Below, piece by piece: positions 3,008 through 28,278 of a stretch of 64,000 nucleotides of DNA. Under the pieces are notes generated by a model. That model had not been told where the DNA came from and searched no databases. It saw nothing but the letters and a program-made list of their open reading frames with translations. Position 1 is the first letter of the stretch. Each line of letters begins with the position of its first letter. A program made the position numbers and the translations under genes. The stretch spans positions 62,001-126,000 of the forward strand of contig NZ_PDEP01000010.1 in the NCBI RefSeq assembly GCF_002554705.1, read 5' to 3'. This DNA is from Longimonas halophila. Lineage in GTDB: Bacteria > Bacteroidota > Rhodothermia > Rhodothermales > Salinibacteraceae.

Positions 3008-3976
3008 TTACCAGCGAGCGCGCTGGCCCCGCAGATCCACATGCACAAATGGACCCCGGTGCGGTGCCGATCCATACACGCCCATGCCGCCCACGTACGC
3101 CTCGCCGTTTTCGGCTTTCACTGCATCTACGATATCAGCCAGGAGTTCAGCATCGGCCTCGGTGACGCGTCCGGTGCCGGTCAGGTCATCCATGCGGGCA
3201 TTGCCGGTGGCATCCACAAAGATATCGGCTGCATCGCCATACAGGTGGCGGCTGTAGGTGCTGGTGTTGCCAATGGCACGGTTGTAATGCGGGGTGCGAA
3301 ATCCGCTCATGATGTACAGCGTTGGGATGTCGTGGCCCCGTTCGCGCACGGTGGCGAGCACGTCCTCCAGAAGCTGCAACAGGCGGGTGTCAAGCAGCAC
3401 AAATTGCGGAAGGGCATCAGTCTGTTTGCACAGAAATTGCTCCAGGCGGAAGTGCGGAGCTACCTGTGTTGTGCGCGTCTCTTCGGTGACCCGAATGAAG
3501 CCCTCGGGCCGCTCATACGTCTCCAGTCCACGGCGCGGCTCCGATTCGTAGCGTCCGATGCGGTAGCCATCGAGGTGCGTACCGTCGTGGTCCCACGGCT
3601 CCAGCACAAACACCTGAAGTTGTATGGAGGCATCGTTGGCCCCATGCACGACAAGTGGATACAGGCCCGGGACATCGGGCGCGATGAACGACCACGGCGC
3701 ATCGCCAGGGCTCCATGTGGTGGTGTCGGCAGGTGTCTCAATGCGGTAGGAGGACGAGGCGTCGCGTCCTTCAACCGAAACAGGTACCGTGTCGCCAGGC
3801 ATAACAGTCACGGCCATGATGGAGGCGCTGATGGCGTGGTCGCCGAAGCGGACCGTGAAGGGGGATGCGGGATCAGTTGGTTGCACAACCGTTGGGGAAG
3901 CAGGGAGGGGCAATACGCCTCCAAAGACCCAGACAATCCCGACAAGAAAGATCCAAATGGAACGCGTCTGATGCAC
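3008..3976 (-). CDS. Secreted M15-family D,D-carboxypeptidase-like peptidase
   Basis: A 322-residue protein with an N-terminal hydrophobic export segment (IWIFLVGIVWVFGGV) and a beta-rich region to about residue 165. The C-terminal catalytic domain resembles peptidase M15_3: YIMSGFRTPHYN, SRHLYGDAADIFVD (His and Asp zinc ligands) and a final FVHVDLRG (third His). Relatives cut D-Ala containing crosslinks or stem peptides of peptidoglycan. It is divergent from an L,D-transpeptidase gene, so the two probably remodel the wall together. The front domain (about 45-165), mostly predicted beta strands, was not recognised. Confidence 0.85.
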   Translation of the reverse strand: MHQTRSIWIFLVGIVWVFGGVLPLPASPTVVQPTDPASPFTVRFGDHAISASIMAVTVMPGDTVPVSVEGRDASSSYRIETPADTTTWSPGDAPWSFIAPDVPGLYPLVVHGANDASIQLQVFVLEPWDHDGTHLDGYRIGRYESEPRRGLETYERPEGFIRVTEETRTTQVAPHFRLEQFLCKQTDALPQFVLLDTRLLQLLEDVLATVRERGHDIPTLYIMSGFRTPHYNRAIGNTSTYSRHLYGDAADIFVDATGNARMDDLTGTGRVTEADAELLADIVDAVKAENGEAYVGGMGVYGSAPHRGPFVHVDLRGQRARW

Positions 3977-4132: not shown

Positions 4133-5896
4133 ATGCACACAGCGCGTTACATCATAGCGGTCGGAATTGTAGGGGGGTTTTTGGGATTGGCCCCGCTGGG
4201 CATAGGAGGGCTTCATGCCCAGCCGTCTGACGAGGCGGCTCCCTCCAACTTCCGCGATGCGCTTCGCGCTCGCACCGAGGTGCTTCAGCACAGTTCGGCC
4301 GCGCAACTCGACGCTGCAGAGGATCCCATCCACACAGCGGCTACGCTAACCGCGTACTATGCCAACCACGACTTTGTACCCGTGTGGGTCACCGAGCGCG
4401 GGCCGCGTATGCGGGTGCACAGCCTGCGGAATGCGCTTCGGCGTGCGGACCGGGAGGGGCTTTCGCCTGCTGACTACCACGTTGAAGCGCTGCAATCGAC
4501 GTTGGCTGAACTACGCACCGAAGAGGACGCGGACCGGCGACAGGCACTGCTCGTGGATCTGGAAATTCAGGCGACAGAGGCATTTCTGCTGTACGGCATG
4601 CACCTGCTAACGGGGCGGGTGGATCCGGAGGAGCTTGCGCCTTCCTGGAATATCCAGCCGCGCCGCGCCGATCTGGTTGCTGTGCTGGACGCCATTGCGA
4701 CCAAACAGCAGCGCGTGCACAGCGCACTCGACACGCTACGCCCGGACGATCCGGGATACAGTACATTGGTCGAGGCGCTGCGTACGTATCGCGGGTATGC
4801 GGAGGAGGGCGGCTGGACGCCTATCGACGCGGGACCAAGCCTGAAGCAGGAAGATCAGGGCGAGCGCGTAGCTCAGTTGCGCTCACGCTTGGCGATAACC
4901 GACGCTCCCGTTCCCGACACTACGAATCCCGACACTACGGATGCATATTTCGATGACCACCTGCATGAGGCCGTCGTGGTGTTTCAGGAGCGCCACGGAC
5001 TGACCCCCGATGGGGTGGTTGGGCCTGCTACCTTACGAGCCCTGAACGTATCAGCGGAGGCGCGCGCCGAGCAAGTACGCGTCAACCTGGAGCGCTGGCG
5101 GTGGCTGCCCACCGACCTGGGCGCGCGGCATGTACGCGTAAACATTGCAGCGTTTGAGCTGGAAGTGGTTGAAGATGACGAACCGGTGCTCAACATGCGA
5201 GTTGTGGTGGGCCGCCCGTATCGCCAAACGCCCGTCTTTTCGGATGCCATTTCATACCTGGTGCTGAGTCCATACTGGCACGTGCCGAACAGCATCGCCA
5301 CCCGTGACAAACTGCCCGAGTTTCAGCGCGATCCGTCGCTGGTTACGCGCCAAGGATTTCAGGTGTTCGACAGCTGGAGCGCACAGGCGCAGCCGCTCGA
5401 TCCGCTTGCTATTAACTGGGGTGAACTTTCGGAACGCACATTTCCGTACCGGCTGCGTCAGAATCCCAGCCCAGCCAATGCGTTGGGCCGCGTCAAGTTC
5501 ATGTTTCCAAACCCACATAATGTCTATCTGCACGACACCCCCACCCGCAGTACCTTTGCGCAGGCTGAGCGCGGATTTAGCTCGGGATGCATCCGCCTGG
5601 AGCATCCGTTGGAGCTGGCAGAGTACCTACTCAGTGACGTTCCGGGATGGGACCGCGCACGCATTGACCGCAATGCCCAGCGTACCGAGGAGGCGACCGT
5701 TGTGCTGCCCGAGCGGGTGCCGGTACATTTGCTCTACAGCACCGCCTGGGCCGACGCTGATGGCGTGGTGCACTTTCGCAACGATGTGTATGACCGGGAC
5801 AAAGCGGTTGGGCATGCGCTTGATAACGAAGGGGCATCGTCCTGGAGCTCGGTGAGCCGCTCAGAGCCCAGAGTAAGAAATCAAAACAGGCTCTGA
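4133..5896 (+). CDS. L,D-transpeptidase (YcbB/LdtD-like, YkuD catalytic domain)
   Basis: The 587-residue product starts at the ATG at 4133, which leads straight into a signal peptide (YIIAVGIVGGFLGLAPLGI, then HAQ). It follows the YcbB layout: an N-terminal scaffold region, a peptidoglycan-binding domain near residues 240-310 (AVVVFQERHGLTPDGVVGP), and a C-terminal YkuD domain with HDTP and SSGCIRLEHP, in which Cys486 is the nucleophile. It forms 3-3 crosslinks or attaches proteins in the periplasm. Its last 13 or more codons (RSEPRVRNQNRL) derive from a MITE-like repeat end, and the stop codon TGA is the repeat's apparent target duplication. Confidence 0.92.
   Translation: MHTARYIIAVGIVGGFLGLAPLGIGGLHAQPSDEAAPSNFRDALRARTEVLQHSSAAQLDAAEDPIHTAATLTAYYANHDFVPVWVTERGPRMRVHSLRNALRRADREGLSPADYHVEALQSTLAELRTEEDADRRQALLVDLEIQATEAFLLYGMHLLTGRVDPEELAPSWNIQPRRADLVAVLDAIATKQQRVHSALDTLRPDDPGYSTLVEALRTYRGYAEEGGWTPIDAGPSLKQEDQGERVAQLRSRLAITDAPVPDTTNPDTTDAYFDDHLHEAVVVFQERHGLTPDGVVGPATLRALNVSAEARAEQVRVNLERWRWLPTDLGARHVRVNIAAFELEVVEDDEPVLNMRVVVGRPYRQTPVFSDAISYLVLSPYWHVPNSIATRDKLPEFQRDPSLVTRQGFQVFDSWSAQAQPLDPLAINWGELSERTFPYRLRQNPSPANALGRVKFMFPNPHNVYLHDTPTRSTFAQAERGFSSGCIRLEHPLELAEYLLSDVPGWDRARIDRNAQRTEEATVVLPERVPVHLLYSTAWADADGVVHFRNDVYDRDKAVGHALDNEGASSWSSVSRSEPRVRNQNRL
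5829..5893 (+). mobile_element. Truncated end of the TNA-flanked MITE-like repeat (copy C)
   Basis: Bases 5855-5893 match the right end of the complete copy at 26659-26697 with few differences, ending AAATCAAAACAGG-CTC, followed by TGA. Weaker similarity (AGGGGCAT...) may extend left to about 5829. The left end of the element is missing. The copy lies inside the 3' end of the L,D-transpeptidase coding sequence and supplies its last codons. Confidence 0.65.
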
Positions 5897-15363: not shown

Positions 15364-15750
15364 GAGCCTGTTTTGATTTCCAAAAAAGTTGGTCCCAAAC
15401 CCTCGTCTTTCAGACGAGCCGCTTTCAGCATCGCTTTTCGGGAAAGGCGGTCTTGCGTAGAGACCGCCTTTCTCCAGGCACTACGGAGTTGGCAAATTGC
15501 CTGAGCAAAAGAGTGCGGGGTGGGCAGTTTGGTTCGAGAATAAGCTTCAGCCGACTTTCAGTCGGCCATCAAACCCACCGACTTTCAGTCGGTGGTGGTT
15601 TAGTTTTTACTTTGGGCTGCGAGCGGCTTCAATGGGCTGCAAATTGCCCCCGATCTCGACCCGTAGCCCCGGCTACGAACCTCCATCGCGGTCCAATTTT
15701 CGCCACATTGCTGCTCGCTCTCGCCTGCAAACCCAAACCCAAACAGACTC
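15364..15750 (+). mobile_element. MITE-like repeat with TNA target duplication, enlarged copy A
   Basis: Bounded by TGA on both sides (15361-15363 and 15751-15753). The ends are imperfect inverted repeats: GAGCCTGTTTTGATTTC on the left, and on the right the complement of GAGTCTGTTTGGGTTTG. Bases about 15604-15750 match copy B (26513-26697) in inverse orientation, including the conserved hairpin CGTAGCCCCGGCTACG. Compared with B, about 220 bp carrying several small hairpins sits between the left end and the shared core. No transposase is encoded. Confidence 0.75.
15402..15595. repeat. Cluster of small hairpins inside copy A
   Basis: Three hairpins share a TTC loop flanked by CT and AG but have different stems: CTCGTCT-TTC-AGACGAG (15402-15418), GCCGACT-TTC-AGTCGGC (15550-15566), and a 9-bp stem CCACCGACT-TTC-AGTCGGTGG (15575-15595). 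A fourth, at 15442-15472, has a 12-bp stem GAAAGGCGGTCT with a 7-nt loop. Stem bases change while pairing is kept. Confidence 0.75.
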
Positions 15751-16415: not shown

Positions 16416-16447
16416 ATGTGGTGAAATGGAGGGATGGAAGGGTGGAG

Positions 16448-16511
16448 GGATGGCGGTCTGCGTCTGGGCGTGCTGCCATTCCGTAGGGACATGGCGCGCC
16501 CGTGCCCCTAC
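16448..16511 (+). repeat. Dispersed repeat with GTAGGGACA palindrome, copy left of cyclase gene
   Basis: About 64 bp starting GGATGGCGGTCTGCG and ending in an imperfect palindrome (16483-16511; left part GTAGGGACATGGCGCGCC). It matches 17755-17819 in the same orientation with several differences, so the two copies bracket the cyclase-family gene. A short palindrome-only copy lies at 26024-26051. Confidence 0.7.
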
Positions 16512-17665: not shown

Positions 17666-17754
17666 GGTAAAGCGCAACACGTGTGTAGTGAAATCTGTGG
17701 CAGTGAAGCCAAGATGAACAACGCGGCGGTGGATTGCAAGCAGGAAGGAAGGAA

Positions 17755-17819
17755 GGATGGCGATCTGCGCTTGGGCATGCTGCCAATCTCCGTAGGGACA
17801 CGGCGCGCCGTGTCCCTAC
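17755..17819 (+). repeat. Dispersed repeat with GTAGGGACA palindrome, copy right of cyclase gene
   Basis: About 65 bp starting GGATGGCGATCTGCG and ending in a perfect 28-nt palindrome at 17792-17819 (left half GTAGGGACACGGCG). It is the direct-repeat partner of 16448-16511. Confidence 0.75.
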
Positions 17820-17828
17820 ACCGCCCAA

Positions 17829-25998: not shown

Positions 25999-26023
25999 GT
26001 TGTTGGGGGAGCCACACCCACCC

Positions 26024-26051
26024 GTAGGGATACGGCGCGCCGTGTCCCTAC
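26024..26051. repeat. GTAGGGATA palindrome, third copy
   Basis: A 28-nt palindrome (left half GTAGGGATACGGCG) with one wobble position, nearly identical to 17792-17819, without the 36-bp upstream part found in the other two copies. Confidence 0.7.
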
Positions 26052-26108
26052 ATCCAACACAGAGCCACTCGCGAATATTGAACCGGGTACAGGGACAATG
26101 CCCCAGAA

Positions 26109-26200
26109 TCAGTACCACAGCGGCGCAATGCGCTCCAGGGCGCGTTTGCTGACCTGCCGGTTCTGCGCCTCGATCGAATCGCGGCGCTCGATGTCGAAGG
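26109..26200 (-). pseudogene. Orphan 3' end of the acuC-like deacetylase gene (92-bp direct repeat)
   Basis: These 92 bp match 27142-27233, the last 30 codons plus stop of the deacetylase gene, in the same orientation with three differences. All three are third-position changes that keep the amino acid (Tyr TAC/TAT, Ala GCC/GCT, Ile ATC/ATT; C here, T in the intact gene). The stop codon is kept. Similarity ends sharply at 26200. The two copies bound 941 bp that contain two small genes and a MITE. Confidence 0.85.
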
Positions 26201-26269
26201 AGTTGGTTCAGGGAAACATAGAAGCCCACAGAAGATTTCTTTCACCTCTCAATTGCATACTCAATCTAC

Positions 26270-26512
26270 ATGCTGGCAAAATATTACACTATGAGAGATA
26301 CTGTAGAGCACAGCACAGATCAGGCAGAGATACAAACATTTTCCGTACGTCGTGAACGCCTCCGCCCAGAAGAGTTCATCACACTGGCTCAAGAAAAGGC
26401 CGAAGTTATCCGCTCGTCAACGTTTGTTCCACCTCAACTTGATGATAATCACTTTGGGTACGTCGAAGTAGAGTACGAGCGGCCCCAATTCCGTCCCAAG
26501 CAGATATCCTAA
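26270..26512 (+). CDS. Small hypothetical protein in repeat-bounded island
   Basis: An 80-residue charged protein with no membrane segment or signal peptide and no recognised motif; the middle is Glu/Arg/Lys-rich (RRERLRPEEFITLAQEKAE). A second ATG at 26291 would give 73 residues. Base composition is lower in GC than the neighbouring core genes. Its stop codon TAA is also the left target duplication of the MITE copy B, so the element inserted exactly at the end of the gene. It lies between the two 92-bp repeats, upstream of another unknown gene. Confidence 0.5.
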   Translation: MLAKYYTMRDTVEHSTDQAEIQTFSVRRERLRPEEFITLAQEKAEVIRSSTFVPPQLDDNHFGYVEVEYERPQFRPKQIS

Positions 26513-26697
26513 GGACCTGTTTGGGTTTTGGTTTGACGGCGAGAGCGAGGGCCGCTGAGGCGAAAATTGGACTCCAACCGAGGTTCGTAGCCGGGGCTAC
26601 GGGCCGAGATTAGGGGCAATTTGCACCAGGGGCATGACCTTCGGCCCCAGCCCAGCGAAGCCGCTCGGAGCCCAAAATAAGAAATCAAAACAGGTTC
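26513..26697 (+). mobile_element. MITE-like repeat with TNA target duplication, complete copy B
   Basis: A 185-bp element flanked by TAA on both sides (26510-26512 and 26698-26700). The left end is GGACCTGTTTGGGTTTT, and the right end is the complement of GAACCTGTTTTGATTTC. It contains an internal hairpin GTAGCCGGGGCTAC and a GGGGC/GCCCC hairpin. Its core matches copy A (15364-15750) in inverse orientation and its right end matches copy C (5855-5893). TNA duplications and GRRCCTGTTT ends recall IS5-family (IS427-type) elements, from memory. No protein is encoded, so it would need a transposase acting in trans. Confidence 0.8.
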
Positions 26698-26724
26698 TAA
26701 GCATCCACATATCGCATTATAGGC

Positions 26725-27135
26725 ATGGAAGACGCATCCTCACCGGCAGATGAGAATAGTGATGAACAGTCTACATCACTCAATGAAGAAACCGTTCAGG
26801 CTATTATTGCCTCTCAACGTGAACAAACCGAAGTCCAGCGTAAAGAGTTAGATGTTCGAGAGAAAGAAATTGAGTTCAATAAGGAGCAGGCAACCGCTTC
26901 CATACAAGCTCAAATCAAAGATCGCGAAAACCAAAGAAGCCATCAGCGAGCGCTTCACACGCAGAACCAACGATACGGCACTGGACTCGCTGTGGTCGTT
27001 CTCATATTTTTAGGCCTACTCGTGTGGATGGGCGAGCGAGACATTGCGCTTGAGCTCATCCGCATAGCGGTCTATGCGGGCGGTGGGTACTACGCTGGGA
27101 AAGCCGTTGGCGAGAGCGGATCGGACGAAACGTAG
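26725..27135 (+). CDS. Hypothetical coiled-coil membrane protein in repeat-bounded island
   Basis: A 136-residue protein with an acidic, Ser/Asn-rich N-terminus and a long charged coiled-coil-like helix (about 25-82, with VQRKELDVREKEIEF). One hydrophobic segment near residues 85-105 (GLAVVVLIFLGLLVWMG) and a Gly/Ala-rich second weak segment (VYAGGGYYAGKAVGE) follow. The layout is like DUF2335-type small membrane proteins of mobile regions, but I do not claim that family. GC is below the window average. It ends 6 bp before the deacetylase gene's stop on the other strand. Confidence 0.6.
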   Translation: MEDASSPADENSDEQSTSLNEETVQAIIASQREQTEVQRKELDVREKEIEFNKEQATASIQAQIKDRENQRSHQRALHTQNQRYGTGLAVVVLIFLGLLVWMGERDIALELIRIAVYAGGGYYAGKAVGESGSDET

Positions 27136-27141
27136 TTCTGC

Positions 27142-28278
27142 TCAATACCACAGCGGCGCAATGCGCTCCAGAGCGCGTTTGCTGACCTGCCGGTTCTGCG
27201 CCTCAATCGAATCGCGGCGCTCGATGTCGAAGGTGCGGGGTTCGTCGTGCAGGGTGGGCGTAAGGGCGGCCTCGCCCTCGTCGGACCAGCGGTCGAGCCA
27301 GTCGGCAGGGAGGTCGGTCGGACGCTCCGCCTCCAGCACATGATGGGCCAGCAGCGTCCAGATACGCACGGTCGCGTCGGGCTGGTAGCCGCCGCCGAGC
27401 GTAAAGAGCGCGCGCCCCTCGGTGTGTGCCTCCGCCAGGTCCAGAAGCTGCGTGAACATTGCGTCGTAGGCGTGGGTGGTGAGGAGCAAGTCGGCGAGCG
27501 GATCGCTAAAATGCGCATCGGCGCCGCACTGCACCACCAGCACATCCGGTGCGTAGCGCTCGATAGCAAACGGCACCACGCGCTCAAACGTCTCCAGGTA
27601 GCTGTCGTCCTCCGTAAACGGCTCCAGGGGGATGTTCAGCGTGCTGCCCTCCCCCGCGCCCTTTCCTATTTCGTGGACGTGTCCCGTGCCCGGAAAGAGG
27701 TAGCGCCCCGACTCGTGCAGACTCAGCGTGAGCACGCCCGGATCGGTTTCGTGGATGTGCTGCACGCCATCGCCATGATGCACGTCAATGTCGATGTACG
27801 CCACGCGCATCCCTTCATCACGCAGCGCCCGGATGGCCATCGATAGGTCGTTGTAGACGCAGAAGCCCGAGGCTTTGCGCCGGTGGGCGTGGTGTAGCCC
27901 GCCGCCCAGTTGCAGCACGCGGTCGGCTGTGCCCTGCGCAATCAGGCGCGCGCCGTGCAGCGTGCCGCCACAGAGCGCCCGAGCCGCCGCGTCCATGTCG
28001 TCGAAGGTGGGCACGTCAGCGGTGTTGAGGCCGAAGTCGCGCACGTTTGCGGGCAGGTCGCCGGTGGAGCAGCGGGCCACTGCATCCACAAACGCCGCGT
28101 CATGCACGGTGCACACATCCTGGCGGGTGGCGGCTGGAGGCGCAGTGAACTCGGCTGTTAGTGGAAGCGCCTCCAGCAGGCTGCACAGCATGCGTTGCCG
28201 TACGGGGCTAAAGGGATGCTCCGGGCCAAAGAAGTACGACAGGTAGGCGTCGTCGAAGAGAAGGGGCGGGGTAGACAT
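27142..28278 (-). CDS. acuC: Histone-deacetylase superfamily protein, AcuC-like
   Basis: A 378-residue member of the arginase/deacetylase fold: GGGLHHAHR (paired active-site His), AYIDIDVHHGDGVQ (DxH zinc ligands), LSLHESGRYLFPGTG, VVQCGADAHFSDPLADL and LGGGYQPD. AcuC removes acetyl groups from lysine, in Bacillus from acetyl-CoA synthetase. It is the last gene of a leftward run after acuB (52-bp gap), supporting the acu assignment. Its last 30 codons (27142-27233) are duplicated at 26109-26200, which suggests that the present 3' end came in with the inserted segment. Confidence 0.85.
   Translation of the reverse strand: MSTPPLLFDDAYLSYFFGPEHPFSPVRQRMLCSLLEALPLTAEFTAPPAATRQDVCTVHDAAFVDAVARCSTGDLPANVRDFGLNTADVPTFDDMDAAARALCGGTLHGARLIAQGTADRVLQLGGGLHHAHRRKASGFCVYNDLSMAIRALRDEGMRVAYIDIDVHHGDGVQHIHETDPGVLTLSLHESGRYLFPGTGHVHEIGKGAGEGSTLNIPLEPFTEDDSYLETFERVVPFAIERYAPDVLVVQCGADAHFSDPLADLLLTTHAYDAMFTQLLDLAEAHTEGRALFTLGGGYQPDATVRIWTLLAHHVLEAERPTDLPADWLDRWSDEGEAALTPTLHDEPRTFDIERRDSIEAQNRQVSKRALERIAPLWY

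Follow-up and report, generated by a model that had tools for sequence, protein, structure and literature searches.

A solitary phage-family gene pair inserted between two acuC 3' ends in Longimonas halophila

An insertion at the 3' end of the acuC-like gene

A pair of genes from two phage protein families was found inserted between two copies of the 3' end of an acuC-like deacetylase gene in the 64,000-nucleotide stretch of the Longimonas halophila genome analyzed here (the window), and the identity of this pair, together with its solitary occurrence in other genomes, is the most useful addition of the present study. The acuC locus appears to hold an insertion of exceptionally small size and without an integrase (Table 1). 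The last 92 bp of the gene are present twice in the same orientation, with 89 of 92 positions identical, a start-to-start distance of 1033 and 941 bp between the copies (best BLAST E value for the repeat in the window, 4e-37). A comparable flanking repeat appeared at the acuC locus in 0 of 300 Markov-resampled sequences, and the 92-mer does not recur elsewhere in the 3.73-Mb genome, the target being single-copy. The three differences, at positions 29, 62, and 89 in the coding orientation, are all synonymous third-position C/T changes, the intact gene having T and the orphan C at each. The TGA stop codon is retained in both copies, which encode the same last 30 residues. On one side the identity runs precisely to the stop codon; on the other it breaks off at CCTTCGAC. 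The repeat with its spacing, synonymous differences, and conserved stops, as well as the distribution of T and C at all three sites, had been described in an earlier note on this DNA and was reproduced in full.

Table 1 Features of the acuC locus (positions in the window)
Feature	Position	Strand	Evidence or remark
Repeat copy 2, orphan acuC 3' end with stop codon	26109..26200	-	9 differences from the congener end
Inserted segment, not in the congener	26201..27141		Empty site in L038; GC 50.3%
Small ORF, 80 aa, phrog_2711 family	26270..26512	+	PHROG E 2.5e-7
TAA target duplication of the MITE, equal to the small ORF stop codon	26510..26512		Second copy 26698-26700
MITE-like repeat, 185-bp, ends (A/G)GAACCTGTTT...AAACAGGTTC	26513..26697		Further copies in the genome and the congener
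Large ORF, 136 aa, phrog_2720 family	26725..27135	+	PHROG E 5.7e-22
Repeat copy 1, 3' end of intact acuC	27142..27233	-	10 differences from the congener end
acuC-like deacetylase gene (Hist_deacetyl), intact, 378 aa	27142..28278	-	PF00850 E 6.5e-85

The congener used for comparison, represented by one genome (G001, an uncultured Rhodothermaceae MAG, on the same contig as locus L038), encodes a 93% identical acuC-like protein at the same place, with a single acuC end and without the pair. Its sequence aligns unbroken from upstream of acuC to the stop codon and then straight into the left flank of the window (TTCTGG...), continuing, as in the window, into a lipoprotein-like gene and then a TonB-receptor-type gene; the outer flank of the orphan copy corresponds to the congener sequence right after acuC. 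The empty site with only one 3' end, which the earlier note had predicted, was therefore found, and its flanks are conserved; such a site in a relative is expected for a gene-end-restoring island. Since the congener has the empty site, the acuC segment is an insertion, and about 1,033 bp (941 + 92) were probably gained in this lineage; loss in the congener lineage appears less likely. The lower GC content noted between the repeats was also borne out, as that of the insert lies below those of the window (60.2%) and acuC (66.2%).

As separate observations, a near-identical 31-bp palindromic intergenic repeat (GGCGCGCC core) was present at 17790-17820 and 26022-26052, as well as after acuC in the congener (L038 ~3091-3120), and a direct repeat of ~78 bp (83% identical, 1.3 kb apart) was present at 16436-16511 and 17743-17819.

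The inserted gene pair and its phage relatives

The insert holds two ORFs, neither of which is a recombinase, and beyond the pair it adds only 69 bp before and 6 bp after. Of the previous description as two unknown genes with no integrase, the lack of an integrase stood, whereas the ORFs matched PHROG 2711 and PHROG 2720, both phage families without assigned function. Searches of Pfam, NCBIfam, PADLOC, and the PDB found no function for the pair. The small protein was modeled with a beta-alpha-beta-beta core at moderate confidence (pLDDT ~77-87 over residues 31-70); this fold had no PDB match at an E value below 0.001, and its best viral match was a phage protein without assigned function. For the large protein, the model and hydropathy predicted a long helix, a hydrophobic stretch at residues ~81-112, and a second helix, suggesting a membrane-anchored coiled coil. 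As a guess, the putative role of the pair may be membrane-anchored exclusion or conversion.

In Klebsiella phage ST512-KPC3phi13.3, as well as in viral contigs near-identical to it, both genes are present, and in the phage they adjoin an anti-repressor gene. In Moraxella phage Mcat13 (KR093637; L200 3474-4087), the pair occupies a region with no annotated features. These phage pairs combine both families in the same order and strand as in the window, a few bases apart, and the adjacency, order, and strand are shared among the window and loci L201, L200, L134, L135, and L136. In genome G289, the pair adjoins a tape-measure-like gene. Unlike the phage pairs, the pair in the window stands outside any phage genes and is split by a nested MITE. 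By its low GC content, patchy presence, and phage families, the cargo is foreign.

The MITE has at least eight further copies in this genome (~85-98% identical) and others in the congener. Its target duplication is of the TAA/TTA type, and the insertion fell on the stop codon of the small gene, which was regenerated by the duplication; the two genes would be ~24 bp apart without the MITE. Its arrival between the two genes was a later event, after the insertion of the pair. MITE-like elements of this family, with AGAACCTGTTT ends and a TNA target duplication, were observed in the window at 26513-26697, 15604-15746, and 5855-5894, together with further partial copies. A multi-copy 185-bp repeat in the middle of the insert might also suggest that the arrangement reflects mis-assembly or coincidence across the MITE. 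This is highly improbable, given that the acuC copies differ at three sites and that the two ORFs separated by the MITE are direct neighbors in other genomes and in phages.

Solitary pairs in other genomes

The presence of the pair is patchy. Among the 114 genomes of the order, 3 match the large protein (one of these matches being weak and partial), and the small protein is carried by 7 of 396 sampled genomes of the phylum. In G017, G089, G276/G373, and G331, the pair is located between ordinary genes without adjoining phage genes. The G276/G373 insertion (L136/L137) consists of 661 bp, leader plus pair, placed exactly at the pheS stop codon, and two other species of the same genus (G132 and G327; L215/L216) have the empty site, pheS-TAA|ATG-next gene. 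Only TAA(A) is repeated there, indicating that the pair can be inserted without duplicating a gene end. The earlier note had named relatives with the same two genes but without a duplicated end as a refutation of its reading, and this applies in part, as such pairs do exist elsewhere, including the one at pheS established against an empty site. The limits of the unit are alike in the two insertions, with a leader of 60-bp in G276/G373 versus 69-bp in the window and an end 0 or 6 bp past the stop codon of the large gene.

In G017 (L134), a Salinibacter-type relative and the nearest other carrier, the pair is flanked by 25-bp direct repeats (23/25 identical) at L134 7834-7858 and 8745-8769, which lie 911 bp apart and had no chance equivalent in 300 trials (0/300). 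Flanking repeats around the pair were absent in G089, G276, G331, and G289; they are thus present in the two family members (the window and G017) and absent in the distant carriers. An 8-mer, CAGCGGCG, is common to the acuC repeat and the G017 repeats, oriented alike relative to the pair, and may be regarded as only a lead. No core site could be defined, and no relative with both flanks of the G017 pair was found to provide its empty site. A Uma2-like 3' fragment next to the G017 pair was considered as a second gene end and rejected, being a decayed gene and not a copy of an intact one.

The pair itself could be a minimal mobile unit (~0.65-0.85 kb, comprising a 60-70-bp leader and two genes, with the second stop codon as its limit) that depends on mobilization in trans and settles at gene ends, sometimes replacing or duplicating the 3' end of its target, but we regard this as unlikely.

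Search for an acuC-targeting element and a helper integrase

Two sets of acuC loci (24 + 28, possibly overlapping, a few with too little downstream sequence to count) left about 45 usable loci besides that of the window, and none had a duplicated acuC end downstream beyond short chance matches. The expectation that acuC is a recurrent island target, with related islands to be found there, failed in these loci. Another carrier of the acuC end was sought with an exact 26-mer and the acuC protein in viral contigs, with the acuC C-terminus in phages, and with the whole 1.1-kb unit in phages and plasmids, and nothing useful emerged; the single plasmid match was 37 bp in purB (E 0.007).

The genome encodes three tyrosine recombinases, of which one is an integron integrase and the other two are Xer-like. 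The earlier note had suggested looking elsewhere for an integrase that acts in trans, and none of the three could be tied to an element like the acuC insert. An integron gene cassette seems doubtful: although the genome encodes an integron integrase, no attC (R'/R'' boxes) was seen at either insert border when read by eye. The integron integrase itself (TIGR02249, E 8e-135) is located at ~7300-8940 of L158 (G000 contig C2), with a GIY-YIG-like small gene beside it and two 80-bp repeats (84%) adjoining it.

Origin of the duplicated gene end

After the split from the sister species, this lineage gained ~1.03 kb at the acuC 3' end. The incoming DNA would have comprised the phrog_2711 and phrog_2720 pair together with an acuC 3' end of its own; recombination between the two acuC ends would have completed the resident gene with the incoming end, which would explain why acuC was kept intact, and the resident end would have been pushed out beyond the pair. 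We infer, in other words, that the orphan is the displaced resident end and that the end now in the gene is the incoming one.

The reading that we tentatively place first, at a little short of an even chance, is site-specific integration by a recombinase that is now lost or acted in trans, the insert being a remnant or passenger of an element such as a phage satellite. The recombinase would be the agent in this case, as suggested by the empty site with one acuC end and conserved flanking genes in the congener, the end of the identity at the stop codon (expected if the end is kept to restore the gene), the synonymous nature of all three differences (only 23% of all possible single changes in the 92-mer, and 34% of the transitions, are synonymous), the phage-type cargo, its patchy presence, and the 25-bp repeats in G017. 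The insert, however, has no integrase and nothing left but the pair with its short margins, which would be unusual for an island in decay; the pheS, G089, and G331 pairs lack flanking repeats, no second acuC element was found, and no core site could be defined. The synonymous pattern is also a weak argument for a foreign end, since two of the three changes fall in the selected copy and a transition at random in the 92-mer has a 34% chance of being synonymous. Compared with the congener, the intact gene carries the derived state at positions 29 and 62 and the orphan carries it at position 89, a polarity that points both ways.

The same polarity bears on whether the repeat arose in place. In that case the insertion event would itself have duplicated the 92-bp acuC end, through a staggered or replication-based duplication of great length, with the three differences accumulating later. 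With the changes at 29 and 62 lying in the copy in which selection keeps changes synonymous, and only that at 89 in the orphan, the purely synonymous pattern speaks only weakly against drift. The repeat border at the exact stop codon would then be chance, however, and only TAA is repeated at pheS. To our knowledge, no transposase makes 92-bp duplications, and duplication of the target in place is accordingly rated as rather improbable. The orphan as a tandem duplication within this strain, which the earlier note had named as a possible refutation, also appears less likely, but it retains some probability because two of the three changes polarize to the intact copy, where selection would favor synonymous ones.

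Homology-driven capture without an integrase is a close rival to the first reading, though somewhat less probable. DNA of another strain would have been joined by RecA on one side and illegitimately on the other, with either an acuC end plus pair as the incoming DNA or a pair already at the acuC stop codon receiving a pair-less fragment; both variants give an acuC end on each side. No recombinase is needed, in keeping with the absence of one, and the synonymous differences would represent the divergence between the acuC genes of two strains. The bare, exact stop-codon insertion of the pair at pheS and the lack of any other acuC island also fit. Homology-facilitated illegitimate recombination has been measured and is rare (PMC3240628), and it has been proposed as the source of the orphaned 3' ends of T6SS/Rhs loci (PMC5361080). 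As in those loci, a displaced gene 3' end follows an inserted module without a recombinase at acuC, but the T6SS/Rhs 3' end has a function in toxin/immunity, whereas the acuC orphan is a 92-bp piece derived from a housekeeping gene. In addition to being a rare process, capture requires a donor with the pair abutting acuC, which was not found, and leaves the 25-bp repeats around the G017 pair unexplained.

Relation to known elements and significance

Protein-gene islands that restore their target exist, such as e14 in icd; we know of no integrase for acuC, and this protein gene is not known to us as an integration site. Under site-specific integration, the closest counterparts of the acuC insert are CIMEs, in which direct repeats holding the target gene end flank a cargo without integration or transfer genes (PMC5704250), and decayed prophages or islands with attL/attR. 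The acuC insert is like them in carrying its cargo between gene-end repeats, with two ORFs only and no integration or transfer genes, and its 92-bp repeats may be candidate attL/attR, compared with 8-60 bp for CIME-type att repeats. Unlike CIMEs, it contains <1 kb of unique DNA, the gene pair only, and no trace of a parent element; none was found at the same site in the about 45 usable acuC loci or in phages, plasmids, and viral contigs. The acuC insert also resembles Islander-type islands that restore a split tRNA/tmRNA target, in which the regenerated target and the displaced fragment mark the two ends (PMC4383910), although it has no integrase of its own and is not recurrent. Of the integrative element targeting a gene end that was originally envisaged, the insertion, the foreign cargo, and the missing integrase have held, whereas neither the recurrent use of acuC nor an acuC end on a phage, plasmid, or viral contig has been borne out. 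On the sequence comparisons made here, the island reading of the acuC insert seems plausible.

In summary, one phage gene pair without visible recombination genes accounts for two insertions with empty sites, one at acuC and the other at pheS in another genus. Two hypothetical ORFs have become members of a conserved pair, one partner of which is predicted to be a membrane-anchored coiled coil. Two questions are thereby made testable, namely by which route accessory genes of phages turn into solitary genes on chromosomes, and whether a gene end is duplicated in an att-type reaction or by ordinary recombination.
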